Source of the DNA: Candidatus Woesebacteria bacterium
GTDB taxonomy: Bacteria; Patescibacteriota; Microgenomatia; Woykebacterales; 2-01-FULL-43-14
Reading direction: 5' to 3'
NCBI GenBank assembly: GCA_020060105.1
Contig: JAGVAV010000006.1
Span: forward strand, 1-38,505
Length of the DNA: 38,505 nucleotides
Part shown: in pieces, positions 1,259 to 32,886 of the stretch
Layout of the letters: each line of letters opens with the position of its first letter
Position numbering within the stretch: position 1 is the stretch's first letter
Program-made: the position numbers and the translations under genes
The notes under the pieces: model-generated
Databases searched by the model: none
What the model saw: the letters and a program-made list of their open reading frames with translations, nothing else
Told to the model about the DNA's origin: nothing

Positions 1259-2065
1259 TTAAAGGCCTGTTTTTAACAACTTTTTCATCAAATCCACTAC
1301 CGCCTTGAAAGTCTTATCTTTCGTCATCAGATCGAAATCCTCACTCTTTTCTTTCCCCAGCTCGTCATTAATCAAGATTCTCAAAACATTCTCTTCCCCT
1401 TCGACCATTAAAGCGTCTTGAAGACTATCCCCGATCAAAATAGCATTTGGCCTCTCTATTTTTATTTTGAGGATCTCTTCTAGACCCTTCTCTTTTTTAT
1501 TTAGCGGGTGAACAAGGGATTCCCTCTCCCAGCTTTTCAGGTAACCGTTGTCAGAAAAAATCAGCTGAGTCGAAATCACCTTTGAAGGGCAAAGGGTATG
1601 CTTTTGGCACCAAAGCTCGATGATGTTTTTTAGCCCGGCGGAGATAATCAGAACAGGAACCCTCTCCCTCTCGCAAACCTCAAACAGCTCTTTGACAAAG
1701 GGCCGGATTGGCATCCTTTCGCAAACGCCGGAATCAATATCTTCCCATTTTAATTGACTTTCAACGTAAAGCTGAAGAGTCCTTTCCCACCAGGTTAAAG
1801 CCTCGATCAAGGTCATCTCCCCGCTGACTTCTCGCGGCCGGTAAAAATCAAACATTTCCTGATACTTTCCCTGAAAATCGGGGTGAAGATGACGGCGCAA
1901 GAGTCCCCAGCTGGTCGCCACTTCCCCAAAGCTGTTTTTCCATTCCGTCATCGTCCGGTCAAAATCCAACACCAGGTGAAGTTTCCCCGAGCCTCCTTGG
2001 GCAAATAAACTAAATTTCTTAAGAAGTCTTTCTTTATCTTGATAATGAAAATCGCGCAGTTTCAT
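1259..2065 (-). CDS. HAD-superfamily pyrimidine 5'-nucleotidase-like protein (UMPH-1/cN-III type)
   Basis: Predicted Mg-dependent cytosolic phosphatase that would dephosphorylate pyrimidine nucleoside monophosphates. HAD motif I is DFDRTMT (nucleophile and acid/base Asp pair, about residue 36), motif II is IISAG, and motif IV is GDSLQDALM. The D-F-D-x-T-x-T form and overall length (268 aa; UMPH-1 members are ~280-330) fit the UMPH-1 family. ATG 2065 is preferred over TTG 2071. It is the last gene of the thyA-DHFR-dUTPase-TS-like cluster, which fits a nucleotide-pool role. A terminator-like hairpin with T-tract ends directly at its start codon, so its expression may be attenuated. The substrate is inferred from family and neighbours. 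Confidence 0.7.
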   Translation of the reverse strand: MKLRDFHYQDKERLLKKFSLFAQGGSGKLHLVLDFDRTMTEWKNSFGEVATSWGLLRRHLHPDFQGKYQEMFDFYRPREVSGEMTLIEALTWWERTLQLYVESQLKWEDIDSGVCERMPIRPFVKELFEVCERERVPVLIISAGLKNIIELWCQKHTLCPSKVISTQLIFSDNGYLKSWERESLVHPLNKKEKGLEEILKIKIERPNAILIGDSLQDALMVEGEENVLRILINDELGKEKSEDFDLMTKDKTFKAVVDLMKKLLKTGL

Positions 2066-2118
2066 AAACAAAAAGGCACCCTTAAGAAAGTCAGGCTTAG
2101 CTAACTTCCCGGATGCCT
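2066..2118 (-). terminator. Terminator or attenuator between TS-like and HAD genes
   Basis: On the minus strand AGGCATCC (2111-2118) can pair with GGGTGCCT (2074-2081; one G-U pair), followed by TTTTTGTTT running straight into ATG 2065. The stem begins at the stop codon of the TS-like gene. It may end the operon or allow conditional read-through into the HAD gene. No separate promoter for the HAD gene is obvious. Confidence 0.6.
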
Positions 2119-3181
2119 AAACGAAGGACTGCCACCTCTCCCAGGCGTAGTCGATTTTCGCCCGGTAGATTGGCGAGGTTAATCTTTTCTCAATGTCTTC
2201 AACCTTCGGATCATAGCCGTCGGTGACGAAAAACAGCCAGCTTCTGATGTCGGCCTGGTTAATTTGATGATTCTTGGCTTCCCCACCTTCAACGTGATAA
2301 TAGATGTCGTTGGCGTAAATGACCATTCTCCTCAGAGGCAAGCCAGTTTCCCGGCTAGCCAGAAGGCCCCATTCCCGATCGTGGGAAATGTCTAGTTGCG
2401 TCCCTCCTAGCGCGTCCATCGCCCGGTGAAGGTGAAGGGAAATCAAACCAACCGGATTACCAACCTCGTCAAATTCTGCGTAGAGCTGGTAGTTCTGATA
2501 AACCGGCACCCCTCCGGCCATACCGCTGTGGTCAATGTGTTCGTAGGTGAAAGAGGGGATGATCGCCCGGCGAGAAGCGGGGGCTTTCTTAATCTCTTCA
2601 ATGACCGAAAGCAGAGTATCCCGGCGCTGACTTTGAAGCTCCCACTCCAGAACCTGGGGATTTTTCAAGTAAAAGTCCAGCAGTCTCTTTCCTTTCCAGG
2701 CTAAGACCGCCAGAATATTTTCCGGGTGATAAAGCTGGTAGGTTCGCCTCAGAAGATCCAGCAGTTCTGTCTTATCCTGAAAATTAACCTCTTGGTAACC
2801 CAGTTTTCGGAAAAGCTCGGTCACTCCTTTGACGTGGCCCCAACCCCCATCATAGTAGCGCGACCGCCAGGCGTATTTGTAAGGATAAACATCCGTTCCT
2901 TCTTGAAACGCTTCGGGAGGCTGATTGGTTTCTTTACGAACGAAATTGTCCTGATACCACTCGTCATCAGCCTGGCGCCAATAAGGGTAATCGTCCTCCC
3001 CGGCCAAAGGATCGGTAATGATCATGACCGCCCCTTTGATCGAGTGAATCGGCCCTCTTTGACTCAAGTAATGCCGACCGTCATTTTTTATCGCTGCCCA
3101 AACCGCTCTTAAGACCTCCCCGGGGGTGCGTCCTTCGAAGATAAAACCCACTTCGCGGTTAGCGGCTAAGACCTTCGCCAT
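2117..3181 (-). CDS. Thymidylate-synthase-fold protein lacking the catalytic Cys
   Basis: The C-terminal half (residues ~200-300) follows the thymidylate synthase/dCMP hydroxymethylase fold: SRRAII (phosphate-binding Arg pair 204-205), PVYQNYQLY (active-site loop), HRAMD (Arg253, Asp256) and a YANDIYYH segment equivalent to the GDxHxY region. In the active-site loop the invariant Pro-Cys is Pro226-Val227, so the normal covalent attack on C6 is impossible. The residue aligned with E. coli Asn177 is Asp264. The N-terminal ~190 residues are longer than in ThyA. It overlaps the dUTPase-like gene by 23 bases and is translationally coupled. It may be an enzyme with altered chemistry or a non-catalytic partner of the ThyA-like protein. 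Family membership is fairly secure; function is unknown. Confidence 0.7.
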   Translation of the reverse strand: MAKVLAANREVGFIFEGRTPGEVLRAVWAAIKNDGRHYLSQRGPIHSIKGAVMIITDPLAGEDDYPYWRQADDEWYQDNFVRKETNQPPEAFQEGTDVYPYKYAWRSRYYDGGWGHVKGVTELFRKLGYQEVNFQDKTELLDLLRRTYQLYHPENILAVLAWKGKRLLDFYLKNPQVLEWELQSQRRDTLLSVIEEIKKAPASRRAIIPSFTYEHIDHSGMAGGVPVYQNYQLYAEFDEVGNPVGLISLHLHRAMDALGGTQLDISHDREWGLLASRETGLPLRRMVIYANDIYYHVEGGEAKNHQINQADIRSWLFFVTDGYDPKVEDIEKRLTSPIYRAKIDYAWERWQSFV

Positions 3182-3842
3182 TCTCCTTCCTTTCCAAAGA
3201 GTATTTCTCCTTTAATTTCTTTATTTCCCCCTTAACGATCAGTTCTTCTTCAACTTTTCTTTTTTCTCTTAGCCTGCCGACGATCAAATCTTTTTTATGC
3301 CAACGGCTTTGAACAACGTCAATGGACTGATTTAAGGGATAAAAAACCAGCTGGCAAAACCGTTCACCGGGATAAAGCCTAATCACCTGGCTGGTCGTGT
3401 TGTTGGTGACCGGAATCAAAAGCCGTCCTTCATAACCGGCGTCGATAATCCCGGTCAGATCCACCGACAGGCCTTTTCGGTTGATTGAAGAACGCGGATA
3501 CAAGACGGCCATCAAATCGTCGGGGATAGAAACTTCTTCCAGAGAAGTGGCCACGACCGATTCTTTGGGTAAGAGATCAAAAAATTGCTTATGTTCCAGC
3601 TCGAAAATGTCAAACTTCTCCCCATCGTCTAGGTAATCAATCATGAAGGCTTCCCGTCCCCTTTCGGTCATTCGCCATAGCTTGGGAACCATAAAGGTGT
3701 AACCGAGGCGCAAATCCACCGAGTGAGACTGAAGCTGGAGAGAATCAATCGAAGGTTCAAATTTTAATCTTCCTTCTTTTAGGTAATCTAAAATCTGTTT
3801 CTTGACTAAAACTGTCGAACTAACCCGGTTAAGGCTACTCAT
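3159..3842 (-). CDS. dUTPase/dCTP deaminase family protein, probably dUTP pyrophosphatase
   Basis: Jelly-roll trimeric nucleotide hydrolase that would act on deoxyuridine or deoxycytidine triphosphate and supply dUMP. Visible motifs are HSVDLRLG (~40-47), PRSSINRKGL (~116-125, phosphate-binding Arg-Ser-Ser), GIIDAGYEG (131-139, Asp134 and Tyr137) and PGERFCQLVF (158-167). In dCTP deaminases the general base is a Glu ten residues after the motif Asp (E. coli Glu138). Here that position is Pro144, which argues against deamination and for dUTPase activity. A glycine-rich fifth dUTPase motif is not obvious; the tail is Lys/Glu-rich. The start overlaps the DHFR stop by 8 bases, and its own end overlaps the TS-like start by 23. 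Confidence 0.75.
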   Translation of the reverse strand: MSSLNRVSSTVLVKKQILDYLKEGRLKFEPSIDSLQLQSHSVDLRLGYTFMVPKLWRMTERGREAFMIDYLDDGEKFDIFELEHKQFFDLLPKESVVATSLEEVSIPDDLMAVLYPRSSINRKGLSVDLTGIIDAGYEGRLLIPVTNNTTSQVIRLYPGERFCQLVFYPLNQSIDVVQSRWHKKDLIVGRLREKRKVEEELIVKGEIKKLKEKYSLERKENGEGLSR

Positions 3843-4347
3843 AGTTAATTTTATACCTCAAATGAAGACTATTTTTATTTAGTTTCCGACACGCTAATAA
3901 AGAACAGTTGATATTATAAAACTTTTCGTTGAAGTTGGGAACCCCTTGCCCGAATATTAAAGGCTCCAGGGTCAGCCAGAGTTCGTCAAGCAGTTTTTCT
4001 CTCAAAAAGCAGCTGTAAACCTGACCCCCTCCGGCGACAAATATTTTCTGAAAACCCCTTTCTTTCAGATTGGAAATAATCGTTTGAGGCTTCGCGTTGG
4101 TAAATTCTAAGACTTCGGCCGTACTTTGATACTCCTCCGACCGGGAAGTTAAAACAAGGTTGAGCCGCCCCGGCAAGGGCTTTTTGAGGGTTCTATAGGT
4201 CTTGGCTCCGATAATGATCACTCCACCCTTCTTGGTTTCCTGAGCGAAAAGCTCTTTATCTTCCGGGGAAGTCCAATTTATCAATTCCCCGTTTTCCCGG
4301 GCGATAAAACCATCAAGAGTGTGGGCGACAATAGCGATTACTTTCAT
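3835..4347 (-). CDS. folA: Dihydrofolate reductase family protein
   Basis: Predicted NADPH-dependent reduction of dihydrofolate, regenerating folate oxidised by thymidylate synthase. Motifs: an N-terminal VIAIVAHTLDGFIARENG strand-loop, NWTSPED (Trp to Asp spacing of five as in E. coli Trp22-Asp27), IIIGAKTYRTL, and the nucleotide-binding GGGQVY loop. Length of 170 aa is usual. ATG 4347 lies one base beyond the ThyA stop and is preferred to TTG 4359, so the two are coupled. Physical coupling to the ThyA-like enzyme implies that at least one TS-family member in the operon oxidises the folate cofactor, as methylation does and hydroxymethylation does not. RibD C-terminal-domain reductases are relatives, but the W-x4-D motif favours DHFR. 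Confidence 0.8.
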   Translation of the reverse strand: MKVIAIVAHTLDGFIARENGELINWTSPEDKELFAQETKKGGVIIIGAKTYRTLKKPLPGRLNLVLTSRSEEYQSTAEVLEFTNAKPQTIISNLKERGFQKIFVAGGGQVYSCFLREKLLDELWLTLEPLIFGQGVPNFNEKFYNINCSLLACRKLNKNSLHLRYKINYE

Positions 4348-4348
4348 C

Positions 4349-5185
4349 TTAAAGAACAATCTGCAAACCTTTTATTGAGCCTAAAGGATGATACTGAGAC
4401 TCGATTTGCTCAATAATCTCGTTAACAAGTTTTTCATCCCCTTTTTTGGCTCTTTCATAAGAGTCTCTGCCTAGGCTAATTTCCACTTTCGGATGATCAT
4501 TCTGACGGCTAATGATTTCTCGAGCCGCCTCATAGTGAATGTCGTAAATATGGGCGTTGGAAATGGTATGGGTGTATTTGCCTACGCCCACGCCAAGCCG
4601 GGCCGCCAAGATTCTTTGAAGAAGAGCAAATCCGGCGCTGTCATGGGGGCAGCCTAAGATCATGTCGTTGGAGCGAATCACATTATGCAAATTCAATTTC
4701 CCCCCGATAATGTTGACGGTAAAAGTGTAAGGGCAGGGGTTGTTGGCTCTTTTAAAAGTCACGCTTAACCCATCACTTGCCTGATCCCAGGTCACGACCA
4801 CCCCATGCCGGGAAGAAGGGTCTTTTTCCAAAAGTTTGACCAAAAGCTCAATCTGGTCCCGGCCGAAGTGACGGCGCCAGCGGTAACCGTAAGCGGTCGT
4901 GACCACCCCGTCGACGTTGGCAAAATCGTCCCAAATCCGGGTAAATTTATTTAAAAATTCACTCGGCCGGCGGCTGCCGGTCAAAAACCAAATCTGCTCG
5001 GCGACAAAGAGTTTGACGGGGATTTTGCGCAAAGTTAAAAGAGGAAAACCTTCATCACCTTCGACCTCAATCGTCTTTCCCGGCAAAGCTCTAACCGCGT
5101 GTTTAGTTCTTTCGTTTAGTTCTTCCACGCCTTTTTCCATGATTTCTTGAAGGATTTTCCGATACTGGCGGTCAAACTCAGTCAT
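4349..5185 (-). CDS. thyA: Thymidylate synthase family enzyme with Asp at the dUMP-selecting Asn position
   Basis: Complete TS/dCMP hydroxymethylase fold of 278 aa. Catalytic Cys is Cys151 in NNPCPYTF. Arg171 and Asp174 (RSNDMILG), His212 and Tyr214 (NAHIYDIH) match E. coli Arg166, Asp169, His207 and Tyr209 at identical spacing. Trp85, Glu63 and Arg26 equivalents are also present. The residue 31 positions after the Cys, Asn177 in E. coli, is Asp182 (PHDSAGF). The second Arg of the phosphate-binding pair (E. coli Arg127) is His127. Asn-to-Asp at this position is the hallmark of T4 dCMP hydroxymethylase and turns TS toward dCMP. It is the first gene of the operon, with a promoter ending six bases before ATG. 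Annotated as ThyA by fold; the true substrate (dUMP or dCMP) is open. Confidence 0.85.
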   Translation of the reverse strand: MTEFDRQYRKILQEIMEKGVEELNERTKHAVRALPGKTIEVEGDEGFPLLTLRKIPVKLFVAEQIWFLTGSRRPSEFLNKFTRIWDDFANVDGVVTTAYGYRWRRHFGRDQIELLVKLLEKDPSSRHGVVVTWDQASDGLSVTFKRANNPCPYTFTVNIIGGKLNLHNVIRSNDMILGCPHDSAGFALLQRILAARLGVGVGKYTHTISNAHIYDIHYEAAREIISRQNDHPKVEISLGRDSYERAKKGDEKLVNEIIEQIESQYHPLGSIKGLQIVL

Positions 5186-18847: not shown

Positions 18848-21800
18848 CTAAGGAGGCGAGTTTTTCGGCGACTCGACTGTTTCTTTAGCAGATCTTTTTC
18901 CAAACCATTTCTTAACCTTCGTCAAATTAATGACTCCCTTTTTATTTAGCAAGATCATTAAAGCAATCAGTCCCGCCAAGACCGCCACGACAATTAAAAT
19001 CAGTTGGCTAGAATCGCCTTCATAATATTTTTTCACCTCGGGGGAATTATCCTCGTAACCCATCTCCTCTGGAACAAACTCAGATTCTGAGGTCACCCGC
19101 AGCACCCGCGGCTGAGTCCGGGCGTAAACCTCCGGAGAATACATCAGGGAAGCAATCGCTGGAGGAACGAGAAAGTTTCCGGCGCTGATGACTCGGGCCC
19201 GATAGGTGTAAACATGCTCCCCCGGGCCAAGGCGGTAAAGAGAAAGAACCACTCCGTTTTGAGTAATTTCTCGGTCACTTATTCCATAGGAATAATAATA
19301 GTTGTAAACTCTTTGGTCGGATTGTTCATTTTTGAAAGACTCATTGATTGGCACCAAACCCGCGGGAAGTTGATCTTCAACCACTCCGTAGTTCTCCTCT
19401 GTCTCAAGCCCGCTAACCACCAATCTAACCGTGACCACTTCCCCAACCGTCAAGGAATAACCCCAACCTTTTTCACTCAGATATTCTCTTCGAATCTCTA
19501 GCCCCTGGCTAACCGGCGGCGAGTCTCGATTGGTTAAAAAGTCATCAACGATTAAAGTCGAATAAATCTGACCCTCGCCCGATTTAGCGATTGTAATTTT
19601 TGAACCGTTAGGCTTTATTTGATCAGCCTTAATGATAATATCTTCAATCATTTGTTTCGGGGAATTAACCTTTCCCTGACCAATTTCCTTCTCGTCCAGT
19701 AAAACCTTATAGGTATAACTGGGCGTAGTTTCCTTTCCCGTCTTGGCAAAGTCCACCACCGCTCTGATTGCCTGAACCGTCGAAAAGGTATTTGACCAAT
19801 AACTTGACTTTCGATTTTGGCTTAAACTACGAGCCGCTTTCACCGCCATCTCTCTTTCTTGACCGCTAAGAATAACGGCCCGCAAAGCTAAAGCGGTTGT
19901 CGCATTTTCCGAGCCGAAACGTTCTCTTGGGCCTTTTTCCCAATAAATCCCTTCCCCTTGGGTTTTAGCCCGAGAAAGAAGCTCGGAAAGATAATTGGTC
20001 GAAGGATTCTTATCTCCGTTAAGAATGTTTTTCATCACCTCGTAGGCTAAGGTATCGGTCGAGATGTTACTTACTTCTGCCAGTTTCCATTTCCCTTTCT
20101 CTGAGCCTAGCAAGGTTAGAGCGTAAGCTCTGACCACTTTTTCCTCGTCTTTGTACTCTCGGTTGTCTTTGATTGAGTAATCATAGTAGCGATCTCTTTC
20201 TAAATATCTTTGGGCTCTACTTAAAATTCCCTCCTCAACGCTGATTCCCACCTTTTTGGCCTCAAGCAAGTACTCAACCACGTAAGCGGTCACGAAAGAA
20301 TCGGGATTACCGCTCGACCACCACGACCAACCCCCGTCGCTATGCTGCAGAGTGGAAAGCCTTTGAACTCCTTTTCTGATCATCTCGTCCAAATCTTTCC
20401 CTTCTAAAACTTGGGCGAAAAGTTCCGGATTAGCCTTGGCGATTATCGCCGGAACGAATCGGCTGGTCGTTTGTTCAACACAACCGTAAGGATAATCGAC
20501 AAGGTACTCCATCGCCTTGGGTAAAGTTCCCAGTAAGGTGGGGGCTAAAGAAAGAGTCACTTTCGACTTCCCAGGATGGCTGTCGGAAGCCAAGCTGAAA
20601 GAAAAAATCTTATCCCCTTCGCTTACCTGAGCTTTTCGGTCATTGTACCCAAACGCCCAGACGGGAATTTCCTGGGTGATCGTATCGGCTACCTTGGGGT
20701 CATCTTTGGCCCGAGCCGAAAAAGTCATCTTCGCCTTTTCATTTTCCTTGTTTGGCAGGACCGGCCAGTAAAACTGCTGTCTTTCTTTTGACTTGATCAG
20801 AACTCCGGAGTAAGTGGCGTTTCGAACTTCCCCGGAATCAAATCTTAGATCCACGTCAAAGACGTGGTCGGATTCCGTAAAGTTATGAACCAAGGCGGAA
20901 AGAGTTAGTTCATCACCCTCTCGGAGTATGTTTGGCAGAATCGGCCGCACAACCAAGTCTTTGGTCACCCTCACCTCTTCAACCGTTTGACCGACCATCG
21001 TTTCTGAATTAGCCCCCACCGCGGAGATTAACCAGGTCGTTAGATTATCCGGCAACTTAAAGCTCACCTTGGCCTGGCCCAGCGCGTTAGTCTTGACCGA
21101 AGGGTTCCAGTAAGGCGCGTCGCTAAAATGATCCCGGTCGCTGATCCCCTCGCCATCGCCACCCCCTCCTCCTTCCGCCACCGGAACGATGATCCCCTCC
21201 AAAGAATGGGCCCATTGGGTATTGTTGTAACGCTCAGACCAAAACCGGTCGAAAATCTTTCCTAAACCGCTGTCGGTTAACTCAAACAAGGCTTTGTCCA
21301 CCACCCAAACGGCCACCTCCGCCGAAACGGGGTTTCCGTAGAGGTCGGTCGTTTTTACCTGAATTTCAACATTGTCTCCCGGACCGAAAACCTTTTGACT
21401 GGGAGTTAGACTAAGAATTAGCTTCCTACTTTCGGTTGAGACAATCACTTTGACTTCATGATGATTGAAAGCGGTTTCGGAGAAACTGGCCGCTTCGGCA
21501 AAGACGTTGGGCATATCCGTCTCGAGTAAGGTTACTTCCACTTCTCCGGTGTAACCGTTTAAGCGAACAACCTGATAACGATGCACCTGATCCCTTTCTA
21601 GAGAGAGGAAAACGTCCCGGTCGGCAAGATCGGAAGAAAGGCTGAATTTAGCTTTTTCTCCGGGTAAATACTGTTCCTTATCAGTGCTAATGGTTAACCC
21701 GCTGTTTTGATTGCCAAAGTAATAAGGTTTGTTTTCTTTCGCCACCCAAAAGTAAAATTCGCGGCTGACCTTGTTGCCCAGGCTGTCATTGCCGCTAACG

Positions 21801-23683
21801 CTAAATTTGTACGAACCAGACTTTGAGGCCGTCAAAGTAAAGGTGGCGTTCCCGGAAGAATCAGTTTGGGCAAACAAATTGGGCAAGTCTTCTTCCTCTT
21901 TTTGATAAGAAGGATACTTTTGACCCGGCTCAAGATAGGAAACCCACTCTTCCCGCCTCACGCTGGCCGTCAAAGAGACGCTGTCAACCTTACCGCCTAA
22001 TCGCGGCACTAAAACTAAGGGCAAAGAAAGAGTTTGACCGACGCTAGAGCCGTAGGTATAGTTTTTCCGATAAATACTGTAGTCGCCCTGGTAAACTAAA
22101 ACATTTTTTCGGGCAAAAGAAGTGTTGCCGAAAGAATCATCTAACGTCGCTTCCATTGAAAATACCTGGCTTCTATTTCTTTGGGAAGGAATTTTTAATT
22201 TTAACTTGACCTCCGCTTCTCCCTTTTCATCTAAAATCACGCTCCCCCCTTCCACCTCCGTTCCGTACCAGTAGCGATAACGGTAACTGTCATCAAGAGC
22301 GTAAGACTGGCTAGCCAAGTAACTATATTCATAAAAATCGCTGGCGTAAATTTTATAAGAGACTTGCTGGTCAGATAAAGGCTGACCGGAGAAATACTGC
22401 CCGGAGATTTTGAAGGTGTTTTCGTCCCCGTTAATCACCTCTGCAGAGGAGGCTTCAACATTGATAAAGTGTTCTGGCTTTCGATAAAAGGCCACCTGAA
22501 AACTAATCGTGTCGCTCCCCCACCAATCCGAAGAAGAAGCCACTTTGGGAACACTCACCTGAAGGTGATACGAACCGGTTGAAACAGTGTCGGGGAGCTG
22601 ATAGTCTCCATAAATTGTTCCCTCAGAGGTAATTTGAAAGCTTTTTTCAAAAATCGAGTTCTTCTCATCCCAATTTCGGTAAATTTTGACGTTCGCGGTT
22701 CCCTTAGGGATGCTGTAGCGAGCGTCGTCATCATCTCTCAGAATAGCTTTGAAATGAACCGTGTCACCCGGACGGTAAAGAGGCCGATCGGTAAGGACAA
22801 AGTAGCGGGCCTGCTTATTTTTGGGCTGAAAAGAACGGTAATTGTAATCGTAATTAAGGCGATGCATGTTGATCGGGATCATCGCCCGCTCTTCGCCTAG
22901 GGAAACCAAGGCAATATCGGCCTCGCCGGAAAGCGGAGTGGTCGCGATTCCTTCTTGGTTGAACACGGCCGAAGAAAGAACTTTAGGACTGTTTAGAAGG
23001 CTATAAACTCTCACTTCCCCTTCGGTAATACTCCGGCGGGTTTTAAAGTTTTGCCCCCAGAAAATAAATTCGTCGTTTCCCTCCTTAACCAAGGCTCCCA
23101 CCTCGGAACGAATAACCAAAGACTCACTGCTAACTTCGTTTGACTTAGCCCGCAAAAACCAAATCCCCGTTCCTTCAACTGGCAAGAGAAGCTTTGAACC
23201 TTTCCCCCACTCTGAGACGACCTGATGATCAACCGTCGCCACATACTGAAAACGACTCACGTCCAGATTTTTCTTGATCTGTTTATTTTTCTCATCGTGG
23301 GTCAAGTAATCTAGCAAAGCCTCTTCATCGGCCTTATAGATCTCAATTTTTACTTCATCGGAAACATTGTAACCTTCAACGCTGATTGCCGGTTCGTCCG
23401 AAGAGGCCAAAGGAATGACTCCGCCGCTGCTGTAACCCTCAAGATTGCTAAAGTAAAGCCGAGGGTTTTCTCCCCAGTAATTGTATTGGCCAAGAACTTT
23501 ATCGTTTCCTTCGGGGAGGCTTTTTGGAGTCTCTTTTTCTCTCGCTTGGGTCAAAAAAGGCAAACGGCTCGAAAATCCGGAAGAATAAATAAAGGAAAAA
23601 AGAAGCAATAAACCTATTAAGACTGGAGCAGTCTTTGGAGAAAGAAGACGGGTAATTCGTTTGAGGAGTCGGCAGGTTTTCAT
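18848..23683 (-). CDS. Alpha-2-macroglobulin family protein, 1611 aa, with thioester motif
   Basis: Large envelope-bound protein that would trap proteases. An N-terminal hydrophobic anchor (~18-38) precedes several macroglobulin beta domains. The MG2-type segment FVLTDRPLYRPGDTVHFKA and a Gly-rich bait-like stretch (EGGGGGDGEG) are clear. The thioester Cys is Cys1068 with Gln1071 (YGCVEQ), in an alpha/alpha toroid domain (LQHSDGGWSWW). The C-terminus has a second transmembrane helix (~1570-1592) and a basic cytoplasmic tail. Membrane anchors at both ends are unlike the usual lipoprotein form. No pbpC partner is adjacent; an exported MEMO protein is. A consensus promoter lies upstream (23713-23741). 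Confidence 0.92.
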   Translation of the reverse strand: MKTCRLLKRITRLLSPKTAPVLIGLLLLFSFIYSSGFSSRLPFLTQAREKETPKSLPEGNDKVLGQYNYWGENPRLYFSNLEGYSSGGVIPLASSDEPAISVEGYNVSDEVKIEIYKADEEALLDYLTHDEKNKQIKKNLDVSRFQYVATVDHQVVSEWGKGSKLLLPVEGTGIWFLRAKSNEVSSESLVIRSEVGALVKEGNDEFIFWGQNFKTRRSITEGEVRVYSLLNSPKVLSSAVFNQEGIATTPLSGEADIALVSLGEERAMIPINMHRLNYDYNYRSFQPKNKQARYFVLTDRPLYRPGDTVHFKAILRDDDDARYSIPKGTANVKIYRNWDEKNSIFEKSFQITSEGTIYGDYQLPDTVSTGSYHLQVSVPKVASSSDWWGSDTISFQVAFYRKPEHFINVEASSAEVINGDENTFKISGQYFSGQPLSDQQVSYKIYASDFYEYSYLASQSYALDDSYRYRYWYGTEVEGGSVILDEKGEAEVKLKLKIPSQRNRSQVFSMEATLDDSFGNTSFARKNVLVYQGDYSIYRKNYTYGSSVGQTLSLPLVLVPRLGGKVDSVSLTASVRREEWVSYLEPGQKYPSYQKEEEDLPNLFAQTDSSGNATFTLTASKSGSYKFSVSGNDSLGNKVSREFYFWVAKENKPYYFGNQNSGLTISTDKEQYLPGEKAKFSLSSDLADRDVFLSLERDQVHRYQVVRLNGYTGEVEVTLLETDMPNVFAEAASFSETAFNHHEVKVIVSTESRKLILSLTPSQKVFGPGDNVEIQVKTTDLYGNPVSAEVAVWVVDKALFELTDSGLGKIFDRFWSERYNNTQWAHSLEGIIVPVAEGGGGGDGEGISDRDHFSDAPYWNPSVKTNALGQAKVSFKLPDNLTTWLISAVGANSETMVGQTVEEVRVTKDLVVRPILPNILREGDELTLSALVHNFTESDHVFDVDLRFDSGEVRNATYSGVLIKSKERQQFYWPVLPNKENEKAKMTFSARAKDDPKVADTITQEIPVWAFGYNDRKAQVSEGDKIFSFSLASDSHPGKSKVTLSLAPTLLGTLPKAMEYLVDYPYGCVEQTTSRFVPAIIAKANPELFAQVLEGKDLDEMIRKGVQRLSTLQHSDGGWSWWSSGNPDSFVTAYVVEYLLEAKKVGISVEEGILSRAQRYLERDRYYDYSIKDNREYKDEEKVVRAYALTLLGSEKGKWKLAEVSNISTDTLAYEVMKNILNGDKNPSTNYLSELLSRAKTQGEGIYWEKGPRERFGSENATTALALRAVILSGQEREMAVKAARSLSQNRKSSYWSNTFSTVQAIRAVVDFAKTGKETTPSYTYKVLLDEKEIGQGKVNSPKQMIEDIIIKADQIKPNGSKITIAKSGEGQIYSTLIVDDFLTNRDSPPVSQGLEIRREYLSEKGWGYSLTVGEVVTVRLVVSGLETEENYGVVEDQLPAGLVPINESFKNEQSDQRVYNYYYSYGISDREITQNGVVLSLYRLGPGEHVYTYRARVISAGNFLVPPAIASLMYSPEVYARTQPRVLRVTSESEFVPEEMGYEDNSPEVKKYYEGDSSQLILIVVAVLAGLIALMILLNKKGVINLTKVKKWFGKRSAKETVESPKNSPP

Positions 23684-30640: not shown

Positions 30641-30655
30641 AATTTCCTTAGAAAA

Positions 30656-30664
30656 TGATATACT
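30656..30664 (+). promoter_or_regulatory. Extended -10 promoter of the histidine kinase gene
   Basis: TGATATACT, placed 17 bases before ATG 30682. It overlaps the in-frame ATG at 30655, which is therefore unlikely to be the start. Confidence 0.55.
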
Positions 30665-30681
30665 TTAACAAGAGGCTTGCT

Positions 30682-32886
30682 ATGACTTTTGCAACTGTCC
30701 TGTTAGTTCTATCAATTATTTTTAACTCGGCATTGGCCTTCCTTGTTTATTCTCAAAACAAAAAGAGTAGTGTAAATAAATCCTTCAGTATTTTGACTCT
30801 TGGTCTTGTTGGTTGGTCAATTTCCATCTTCCTCACGGTACAAACATCTGATACTTTTTTTGGAAAACTCGCCTTTGCTTTTGGCTCAATTATTCCAGCT
30901 TCTTATCTACACTTCGCACTATTGTTCCCCCAAACCAAAGCCAAACCTAAAGTTCTTTTAATTTATTTACCAGCAATGATATTTGCCTTAATGTCCTTCA
31001 TCGATAATCTAATGTTTGAAGGAATAGAAATTGTCCATGGAGGCATTCAAACTGAAAGAGGATTTATTTATCCAATCTTCACTATATATGTTATTACTTA
31101 TATTGTCCTGCTAAGTACAATTCTTATAAGAAATTTTATTCGCTCTAAAGGGTTACCCAAAACCCAACTTGGATATCTCCTATTAGGTTTGCTGTTAACA
31201 ACACTGTCAGTGATATCTACTAACCTGCTCTTGCCTATATTTGGTTTCTATCAATTTAATGGTATCGGACCGGCCTCTGCCCTATTTTTCTCTGCCTTTA
31301 CCACCTACGCCATTGTTAAACACCGGCTCATGGACATCCGATTGGTCGTCGCTAGAACAATCGCTTACTCCTTACTCCTTCTCATCATTACCGGTTCTTA
31401 TGCCTTATCAATGCTGGCCTTTAGCTCTTACTTTTTTCAAGGCTCTCTTCAAGGAAACCAACTCTTTTTCTCCACAATCTTGACAATCATTGTCGCTTTC
31501 ACCTTCCAGCCTCTCCGGCGAACTTTGGAACATGCTACTGACAAAATCTTCTTTAAGGGCATGTATGATTCCCACCAGCTTTTGGCCAAGATGAGTCACA
31601 TTATGGCCACCACCTTACTGGTAGACGTTCTCACGAAAGAGGTTCTTCACGAGCTAACCAAGCAGATGAGAATCAGCCGAGGAGCTTTTATTCTCGTGAA
31701 TAAAGGGGAAGTGATTTTGGTTGAAACGGAAGGGTATGATAAACCGCCGGGCTTTACCCAGCGGCAGATCTTTGCCTTGGAAGCGGCAGGCAAAACCTTA
31801 GTTTTTGAAGAAATGGGGGACGGAACGCTTAAAGACACCTTAAGAAAAATGGACATTACTATCTCCATTCCTCTTAAAACCAGTGAAAAAGAAATTGGTT
31901 TACTACTCTTAGGCGAAAAACTTTCTGGAGAAATCTATTCCGACCAAGATATCAAAGTCCTCGAGATTTTAGCCCCCGAGGTTTCGGTAGCCATCCAAAA
32001 TACCCTTTCTTACGAAGAAATCCGAAAATTTAACGTGACTTTAAAGATTGAAGTAGAAAGAGCGACAAGGAAACTGCGCGACGCCAACGAAAGACTTAAA
32101 GAAATGGACAGACTCAAAGATGAATTTGTCTCCATCGCCTCTCACGAACTGCGCACCCCGATGACAGCGATCAAAAGTTATCTCTGGTTAATCCTTCACA
32201 AATCAGTGAAACTTGACGAAAAAATCCAAAGGTACCTTGATCGGGCTTACACCAGCTCCGATCGAATGATCGCCCTCATTAATGATCTGTTAAATGTTTC
32301 CCGAATCGAAAGCGGCCGGATCCAGCTGGAACCCAAACCAACTAAATTAAACGACATCGTCGAAGAAACTCTCGCCGAGATCATGCCTAAAGCCAGCGAA
32401 AAGTCACTCCAATTAACTTTTGTTAAGCCAAAGGGAGATCCTTTCGTCATGGTTGATCCCCAACGTTTCCCAGAAATCATCACTAATTTCGTGGGTAATT
32501 CGATCAAATTCACTCCCCCCAACGGCAAGATCACCGTTGCCGCCAGAGTGATAAAAGATAAAGTTCAAGTCGACGTGACCGATACGGGAGTAGGCATCTC
32601 TAAGGAAGATCAATCGAAGCTCTTTCAAAAATTCGGCCGCCTGGATAATTCATATAAAGCCATCGCCACCAACGGAGGTAGCGGTTTAGGGCTTTACATC
32701 ACGAAGAATTTGATTGAACTGCAAGGCGGTAAAGTCTGGGTGGATTCCGAAGTCGATAAAGGAGCCACTTTCAGCTTTACTGTTCCTCTAGCAAAAGAAT
32801 CGGAAATCAAAAAGGCGCATCGAGAAGAAGATAAACCGCTTGAGGGAGTCTACGTTAACGAAAAGGCCATCACAACTAAAAAATAA
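30682..32886 (+). CDS. Membrane sensor histidine kinase with 7TM-type N-terminus, GAF-like and HisKA/HATPase domains
   Basis: 734-aa kinase. Several hydrophobic helices fill residues ~1-270 (the 7TM sensor type of histidine kinases). A GAF-like domain follows (~295-425, ending LEILAPEVSVAIQNTL), then a coiled coil, then HisKA with the phospho-acceptor His488 in ASHELRTPMTAI. The HATPase shows an N-box (NFVGNSIKFTP), G1 (DTGVGISKED), an F-box (FQKFGR) and G2 (GGSGLGLYI). ATG 30682 with AGAGG upstream is preferred to ATG 30655, which lies on the -10 box. No complete response regulator is adjacent. The ligand is unknown; the neighbouring acyltransferase-like gene is suggestive only. Confidence 0.88.
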   Translation: MTFATVLLVLSIIFNSALAFLVYSQNKKSSVNKSFSILTLGLVGWSISIFLTVQTSDTFFGKLAFAFGSIIPASYLHFALLFPQTKAKPKVLLIYLPAMIFALMSFIDNLMFEGIEIVHGGIQTERGFIYPIFTIYVITYIVLLSTILIRNFIRSKGLPKTQLGYLLLGLLLTTLSVISTNLLLPIFGFYQFNGIGPASALFFSAFTTYAIVKHRLMDIRLVVARTIAYSLLLLIITGSYALSMLAFSSYFFQGSLQGNQLFFSTILTIIVAFTFQPLRRTLEHATDKIFFKGMYDSHQLLAKMSHIMATTLLVDVLTKEVLHELTKQMRISRGAFILVNKGEVILVETEGYDKPPGFTQRQIFALEAAGKTLVFEEMGDGTLKDTLRKMDITISIPLKTSEKEIGLLLLGEKLSGEIYSDQDIKVLEILAPEVSVAIQNTLSYEEIRKFNVTLKIEVERATRKLRDANERLKEMDRLKDEFVSIASHELRTPMTAIKSYLWLILHKSVKLDEKIQRYLDRAYTSSDRMIALINDLLNVSRIESGRIQLEPKPTKLNDIVEETLAEIMPKASEKSLQLTFVKPKGDPFVMVDPQRFPEIITNFVGNSIKFTPPNGKITVAARVIKDKVQVDVTDTGVGISKEDQSKLFQKFGRLDNSYKAIATNGGSGLGLYITKNLIELQGGKVWVDSEVDKGATFSFTVPLAKESEIKKAHREEDKPLEGVYVNEKAITTKK

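Follow-up and report, generated by a model that had tools for sequence, protein, structure and literature searches.

Cells are described as making thymidylate de novo by methylating dUMP with ThyA or ThyX. The window analysed here, a stretch of 38,505 nucleotides (positions 1 to 38,505 of contig JAGVAV010000006.1) from a Candidatus Woesebacteria bacterium, encodes a ThyA-family protein that carries aspartate where dUMP-specific thymidylate synthases (TS) have asparagine, which raises the question of which nucleotide this enzyme methylates. We posit that it is probably a folate-dependent dCMP methylase serving thymidylate synthesis, whose product would be deaminated to dTMP.

Identity of the ThyA-family enzyme

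The gene (4349-5185, minus strand) is an intact open reading frame with an ATG start and encodes 278 amino acids. Its product matches PF00303 (6.3e-51, above the curated cut-off) and solved ThyA structures, and its AlphaFold2 model (mean pLDDT 91.5) has the ThyA fold and matches ThyA structures as well. With canonical ThyA it shares the fold and the active-site Cys, Arg, Glu, His and Tyr. As the first-pass annotation of this DNA had read them, Cys151, Arg171, Asp174, His212 and Tyr214 align without gaps and at a constant offset of five with E. coli Cys146, Arg166, Asp169, His207 and Tyr209. The same offset, ungapped between Cys151 and Tyr214, places Asp182 (codon 4640-4642, minus strand, by direct reading and alignment) at the site of E. 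coli Asn177, which governs base specificity. The codons of the nucleophile Cys151 and of Pro152, at the E. coli His147 site, occupy 4730-4735 (minus strand; assigned from residue alignments, with site 147 treated in PMC8670742). His127 had been pointed out at the second phosphate-binding Arg site; the position is right, but His or Gln is usual there within the Asp-type clade and three of four Asn-type Patescibacteria ThyA in the residue table sample also have no Arg, so that it is no special mark of this enzyme. Three features had escaped the first-pass annotation: the minus-strand orientation of the gene, the absence of the dCTP-deaminase glutamate from the DCD-like neighbour, and a second TS-like gene, without cysteine, at 2117-3181.

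In the genome of origin (1.09 Mb, 40 contigs, 97.9% complete) this protein is the sole ThyA-family match over threshold, and a profile search of the genome found no ThyX; the genome-wide absences reported below likewise rest on profile searches. A phage or prophage origin was considered and rejected. A scan of viral contigs gave no close relative and the gene cluster recurs in many Patescibacteria, and we therefore take the gene to be chromosomal.

Distribution and phylogeny of the Asp-type clade

A scan of species genomes yielded 34 relatives with 51-77% identity, distributed over many lineages of Patescibacteria (Daviesbacteria, Amesbacteria, Harrisonbacteria, Colwellbacteria, Jacksonbacteria, Moranbacteria, Uhrbacteria, Falkowbacteria, Kerfeldbacteria, Portnoybacteria and Gracilibacteria among them) and one bin labelled Ktedonobacteria (Chloroflexota). 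The nearest named relatives belong to Candidatus Daviesbacteria (73-77%). All 35 proteins, the window enzyme included, have Asp at the E. coli 177 site and none the Asn of dUMP-specific thymidylate synthases; a Pro-His-Asp ('PHD') motif is found in every relative, and Cys151 is invariant across the clade. Since Asp182 is invariant in 34 relatives from so many patescibacterial lineages and the Ktedonobacteria-labelled bin, chance or sequencing error is excluded as its cause. The other TS-like proteins of the same class that were inspected, namely 25 ThyA (about 280-360 aa) and two longer proteins (about 520 aa), all carry Asn. This division, with Asp fixed in one set and Asn kept in the other, argues for dCMP as the substrate of the Asp-type enzymes.

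The first-pass annotation had asked whether homologues with Asp form a clade. In our tree the patescibacterial Asp proteins do group together (SH-aLRT 84), apart from the phage Asp proteins (support 100) and from the Asn proteins (94). The two Asp groups lie next to each other in the tree, but their joining is weakly supported (69).

The two proteins of about 520 aa, from other Patescibacteria (L029 and L032; Asn at 177; RSQDMVHGWPRN), constitute a third TS type, and open frames of about 480-590 aa in further genomes, including one of the window's own family (G001), match as well. The Ktedonobacteria-labelled bin (L041/G100, 4.8 Mb) contains an Asp-type TS together with a protein resembling c20, described below; it reflects either transfer to Chloroflexota or a mis-binned patescibacterial contig.

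Active site and base specificity

Asp177 is not the only departure from canonical ThyA. His147 is changed to Pro, Leu143 to Asn and Trp83 to Phe in all relatives, and Gln165 is replaced throughout the clade, with Ile or Val at that site (E. coli numbering). According to PMC8670742, replacement of Asn177 by Asp redirects TS to dCMP with 5-methyl-dCMP as product, which agrees with the first-pass statement that such mutants favour dCMP. In the same study, positions 177 and 147 were the best separators of TS from phage contigs with modified and unmodified cytosine. These two results support the dCMP methylase reading. The engineered N177D/N229D enzymes, for which PMC8670742 reports dCMP methylase activity, carry the same substitution; here it occurs in nature, throughout a clade and alongside other changes in the active site. 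The CMP hydroxymethylase MilA has the ThyA fold and an Asp for the cytosine base as well (PMC5175136), but the window clade keeps Ser172 and Arg126, as deoxyribonucleotide enzymes do, whereas MilA carries Ala and Lys at these positions, which select the ribose.

The closest phage enzymes, those of RcRudolph (Rhodobacter), 83-24 (Achromobacter), DoCa5 (Xanthomonas), PaMx74 (Pseudomonas) and Tedan (Ruegeria), share the set Asn143/Pro147/Asp177/Phe83; position 165 is Ile, Val or Leu in all five. Stenotrophomonas phages AXL1 and DLP4 have the same TS motifs. All of these phage genes adjoin a dCMP deaminase gene, mostly with DHFR and pyrophosphohydrolase genes close by. The joint change of residues 147, 143 and 83 in the Asp clade, and the recurrence of the same set in phage enzymes encoded beside dCMP deaminases, further suggest that the window enzyme acts on dCMP.

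A new route to thymidylate has been reported for cells infected with phage Xp12. AXL1 and Xp12 both belong to the genus Bosavirus (PMC11946847). In Xp12-infected cells a dCMP methyltransferase activity has been described (PMC8543423), the phage DNA contains 100% 5mC (PMC7653180), and the Xp12 deaminase reportedly converts 5mdCTP to dTTP (PMC12088426). This precedent supports methylation of dCMP by the window enzyme, which has Asn143, Pro147 and Asp177 in common with the TS of AXL1, DLP4, PaMx74 and DoCa5 (Mesyanzhinovviridae, Bradleyvirinae), relatives that stand in here for Xp12. Many members of the window clade, like these phages, have a deaminase-like gene and a DHFR-like gene as neighbours. 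There are also differences. Identity of the phage enzymes to the window TS is only about 35-38%; the TS of the window clade is encoded in cellular chromosomes, nearly always as the only TS; and the proposed pyrophosphatase partner in the Asp-type bacteria is a DCD-like protein. The deaminase-like partner is present in the genomes of 29 of the 34 relatives and absent from the window genome.

Gene neighbourhood and co-occurrence

Four genes follow the window TS on its 3' side in the same direction. The first (3835-4359, minus strand; PF00186 4.9e-19, PF01872 4.4e-18) encodes a DHFR/RibD-fold reductase, which is a neighbour in most relatives and which we propose as the folate recycling partner; its true start is probably an internal ATG. 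It is followed by a DCD/dUTPase-superfamily protein (3159-3842, minus strand; PF22769 4.6e-31), by the divergent TS-like protein c20 and, beside the cluster, by a UMPH-1-type HAD hydrolase resembling pyrimidine 5'-nucleotidases (1259-2071, minus strand; PF05822 6e-29), which is not conserved beside TS in relatives. Among the clustered TS loci, including the window, neighbours were DHFR-like in 27, DCD-like in 28, of a mixed thymidylate kinase/dUTPase cluster in 21, and in 20 a zinc dCMP-deaminase-like protein (c4); a dUTPase lies beside TS in many Asp-type genomes.

The DCD-like protein was rejected as a dCTP deaminase because the catalytic glutamate, Glu138 of E. coli dCTP deaminase, is absent: in the alignment its Pro144 pairs with the Ala of the E138A structure 1xs4. 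It may instead be a dCTP and/or dUTP pyrophosphatase. The Pro form is also found across the Asp clade, whereas in Asn-type Patescibacteria the highest-scoring DCDs retain the Glu. No Glu-type dCTP deaminase was seen in the Asp-type sequences inspected, which had only the Pro form, sometimes with a dUTPase; any cytosine deamination in these genomes would therefore fall at the monophosphate level. Known dCMP deaminases accept 5-methyl-dCMP (PMC12088426); this, and the lack of a Glu-type form in those sequences, favour the dCMP methylase reading.

The c4 protein has HxE and CxxC motifs and extra conserved cysteines; among solved structures, deoxycytidylate deaminases score best against it. It was present in 29 of the 34 Asp-type genomes and, scored at comparable strength, in none of 45 other Patescibacteria (0/27 Asn-type and 0/18 further genomes; Fisher p ~1e-16, with lineages that do not count as independent cases). 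Among 240 evenly sampled Patescibacteria, Asp-type TS occurred in seven genomes and c4 in six, the same ones minus the window's (6/7 against 0/233 of the others). The two genes are on different contigs in G130 and G331 and about 14 kb apart in G167, so that their link is not merely physical. This co-occurrence fits a pathway that needs a deaminase, whichever of TS and deaminase acts first. ThyX was absent from all 34 Asp-type genomes in profile searches, a second canonical ThyA was found in one of them (G121), and the mixed Ktedonobacteria-labelled bin had a weak second TS match that is c20-like. In nearly all of its genomes the Asp-type TS is thus the only thymidylate synthase found, which together with the presence of c4 argues for dCMP methylation as their source of thymidylate. 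The co-occurrence with a monophosphate-deaminase-like protein also adds to the clade-wide Asp, the changed residue 147 and the same signature in Xp12-related phages in backing the suggestion that dCMP is the substrate.

The route to dTMP by way of deamination, an unusual one that had been raised at first pass, fits most relatives but not yet the window genome, which has no recognisable deaminase: a profile search for PF00383, the deaminase family, found none in this genome nor in that of L036, and only a weak 132-aa match in that of L035.

In Uhrbacteria (L046:9381-10292, L047:9369-10280, L050 and L055) the deaminase of the operon carries, fused at its C-terminus, a domain resembling nucleoside 2-deoxyribosyltransferases (PF05014; match shown for L047). 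In Colwellbacteria locus L038 (G097:C13:41163-41536) the deaminase beside TS appears to be divided between two frames, which may reflect a frameshift or a pseudogene.

Proposed route and alternative explanations

We infer substrate, product and order of steps from the observed residues, clade, gene set and co-occurrence. The Glu-less DCD-like protein would hydrolyse dCTP, and perhaps dUTP too, to the monophosphate. TS would bind dCMP through Asp182, its Cys151 adding to C6, and would transfer and reduce the methylene group of CH2-THF to yield 5-methyl-dCMP and dihydrofolate. DHFR would then recycle the folate, c4 would deaminate 5-methyl-dCMP to dTMP, and thymidylate kinase would act on the dTMP.

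The main alternative is an ordinary dUMP-methylating TS that tolerates Asp and receives dUMP from dCMP deaminated by c4, or from dUTP by way of the DCD-like protein or a dUTPase. The gene set counts against dCMP methylation here, as it equally fits dCMP to dUMP to dTMP: dCMP deaminase, dUTPase, TS, DHFR and thymidylate kinase are the classical set, the dUTPase neighbours suit a dUMP user, and the authors of the AXL1 study read the phage gene cluster in this way (PMC9206674). The window and L036 genomes, in which PF00383 was not detected, point in the same direction, since the window genome could obtain dUMP from dUTP, and the support of only 69 for the grouping with phages is a further point against dCMP methylation. 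On the other side, Asp together with Pro147 marks enzymes that act on dCMP (PMC8670742), Asp179 of T4 dCMP hydroxymethylase is the determinant for dCMP versus dUMP (PMC6400193), and an Asp invariant throughout the clade would be difficult to understand if Asn just served dUMP better. We therefore favour the dCMP methylase over an Asp-tolerant dUMP enzyme, and consider the latter possible but on the whole unlikely.

An enzyme of dual specificity, using dCMP and dUMP at useful rates, would give dTMP by either order of methylation and deamination. It would account for the dUTPase neighbours, the coupling to a deaminase and the life of the window genome without a recognisable one, but PMC8670742 reports the effect of Asn to Asp as a shift of preference to dCMP, and we regard dual specificity as very unlikely.

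Least probable of all is that the enzyme hydroxymethylates dCMP or makes a modified DNA base, as in T4 or Xp12 phage DNA: T4 gp42 shares Asp at 177 (as the first-pass annotation had stated and our residue table bears out), the Cys nucleophile and the ThyA fold, and part of the Asp clade has Thr or Ser two residues before the catalytic Tyr, but the hydroxymethylase signature, an Asp or Glu at the third position ahead of the Cys (PMC6400193), is replaced by Asn148, invariant in 25 aligned members, the T4 D145N mutant is inactive and forms no product (PMC6400193), the linkage to DHFR points to methylation, and most of these genomes have no other TS for dTMP. Of the two reactions first suggested for the window enzyme, methylation of dCMP is thus favoured and hydroxymethylation unlikely, and the argument that a coupled DHFR favours methylation is strengthened by Asn148. 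The suggestion of a modified DNA base found no support, the enzyme being nearly always the sole dTMP-making candidate in these genomes.

A cysteine-free TS-like protein in the same cluster

The product of 2117-3181 (minus strand), c20, is a divergent, cysteine-free TS-like protein (354 aa) in which Asp occupies the Asn177 column. Its PF00303 match (1e-4) is below the cut-off, and its relation to the TS family comes from hhalign (95%). The cysteine is missing in five of six members (the window protein, L035:9512-10534, L036:9550-10620, L134, L177:2181-3209 and L178:6055-7080), and a QLD motif is conserved at the Asn177 column. Carriers include the window genome, those of L035 and L036, and the Ktedonobacteria-labelled bin. 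It occurred in four of the five Asp-type genomes without c4 and in none of the 29 with c4.

In G171 (L177) the c20 gene is flanked by DHFR and serine hydroxymethyltransferase, as though it encoded the thymidylate-cycle enzyme, and neither c4 nor an Asp-type TS was found in that genome at the threshold used. In G130 c20 adjoins the Asp-type TS in divergent orientation and precedes thymidylate kinase; c4 is elsewhere in the genome. These positions suggest that c20 has a part in the thymidylate cycle. Strict mutual exclusion of c4 and c20, with c20 as a simple replacement of the deaminase, was rejected, as G130 has both and G171 has c20 without either partner. The AlphaFold model of c20 is poor (pLDDT 54); its matches to TS N229D with dCMP, to MilA and to an FAD-dependent dCMP hydroxylase may serve as a lead only.

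Implications

If these Patescibacteria do methylate dCMP, they would be, to our knowledge, the first cells with an Xp12-type route as their sole source of dTMP. This would also explain the clade-wide 'wrong' specificity residue, an unusual deaminase that hardly occurs without this TS and the lost dCTP-deaminase glutamate of the neighbour, and 'thymidylate synthase' annotations in widespread uncultured bacteria would name the wrong substrate. In its most far-reaching form, our proposal would mean that whole bacterial lineages make all of their thymine by dCMP methylation and deamination of 5-methyl-dCMP, never through dUMP, with c20 as the deaminase in the window lineage; deamination by c20 would then be new chemistry for the thymidylate synthase fold, and we consider this form distinctly doubtful. 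A search covering the open-access literature found no paper on a dCMP-methylating TS in Patescibacteria.

Elsewhere in the window, two further genes encode large proteins: a 1611-aa protein resembling alpha-2-macroglobulin, which matches bait-region and TED domains (18848-23683, minus strand), and a 743-aa histidine kinase with matches to an N-terminal 7TM sensor region and a GAF domain (30655-32886, plus strand).
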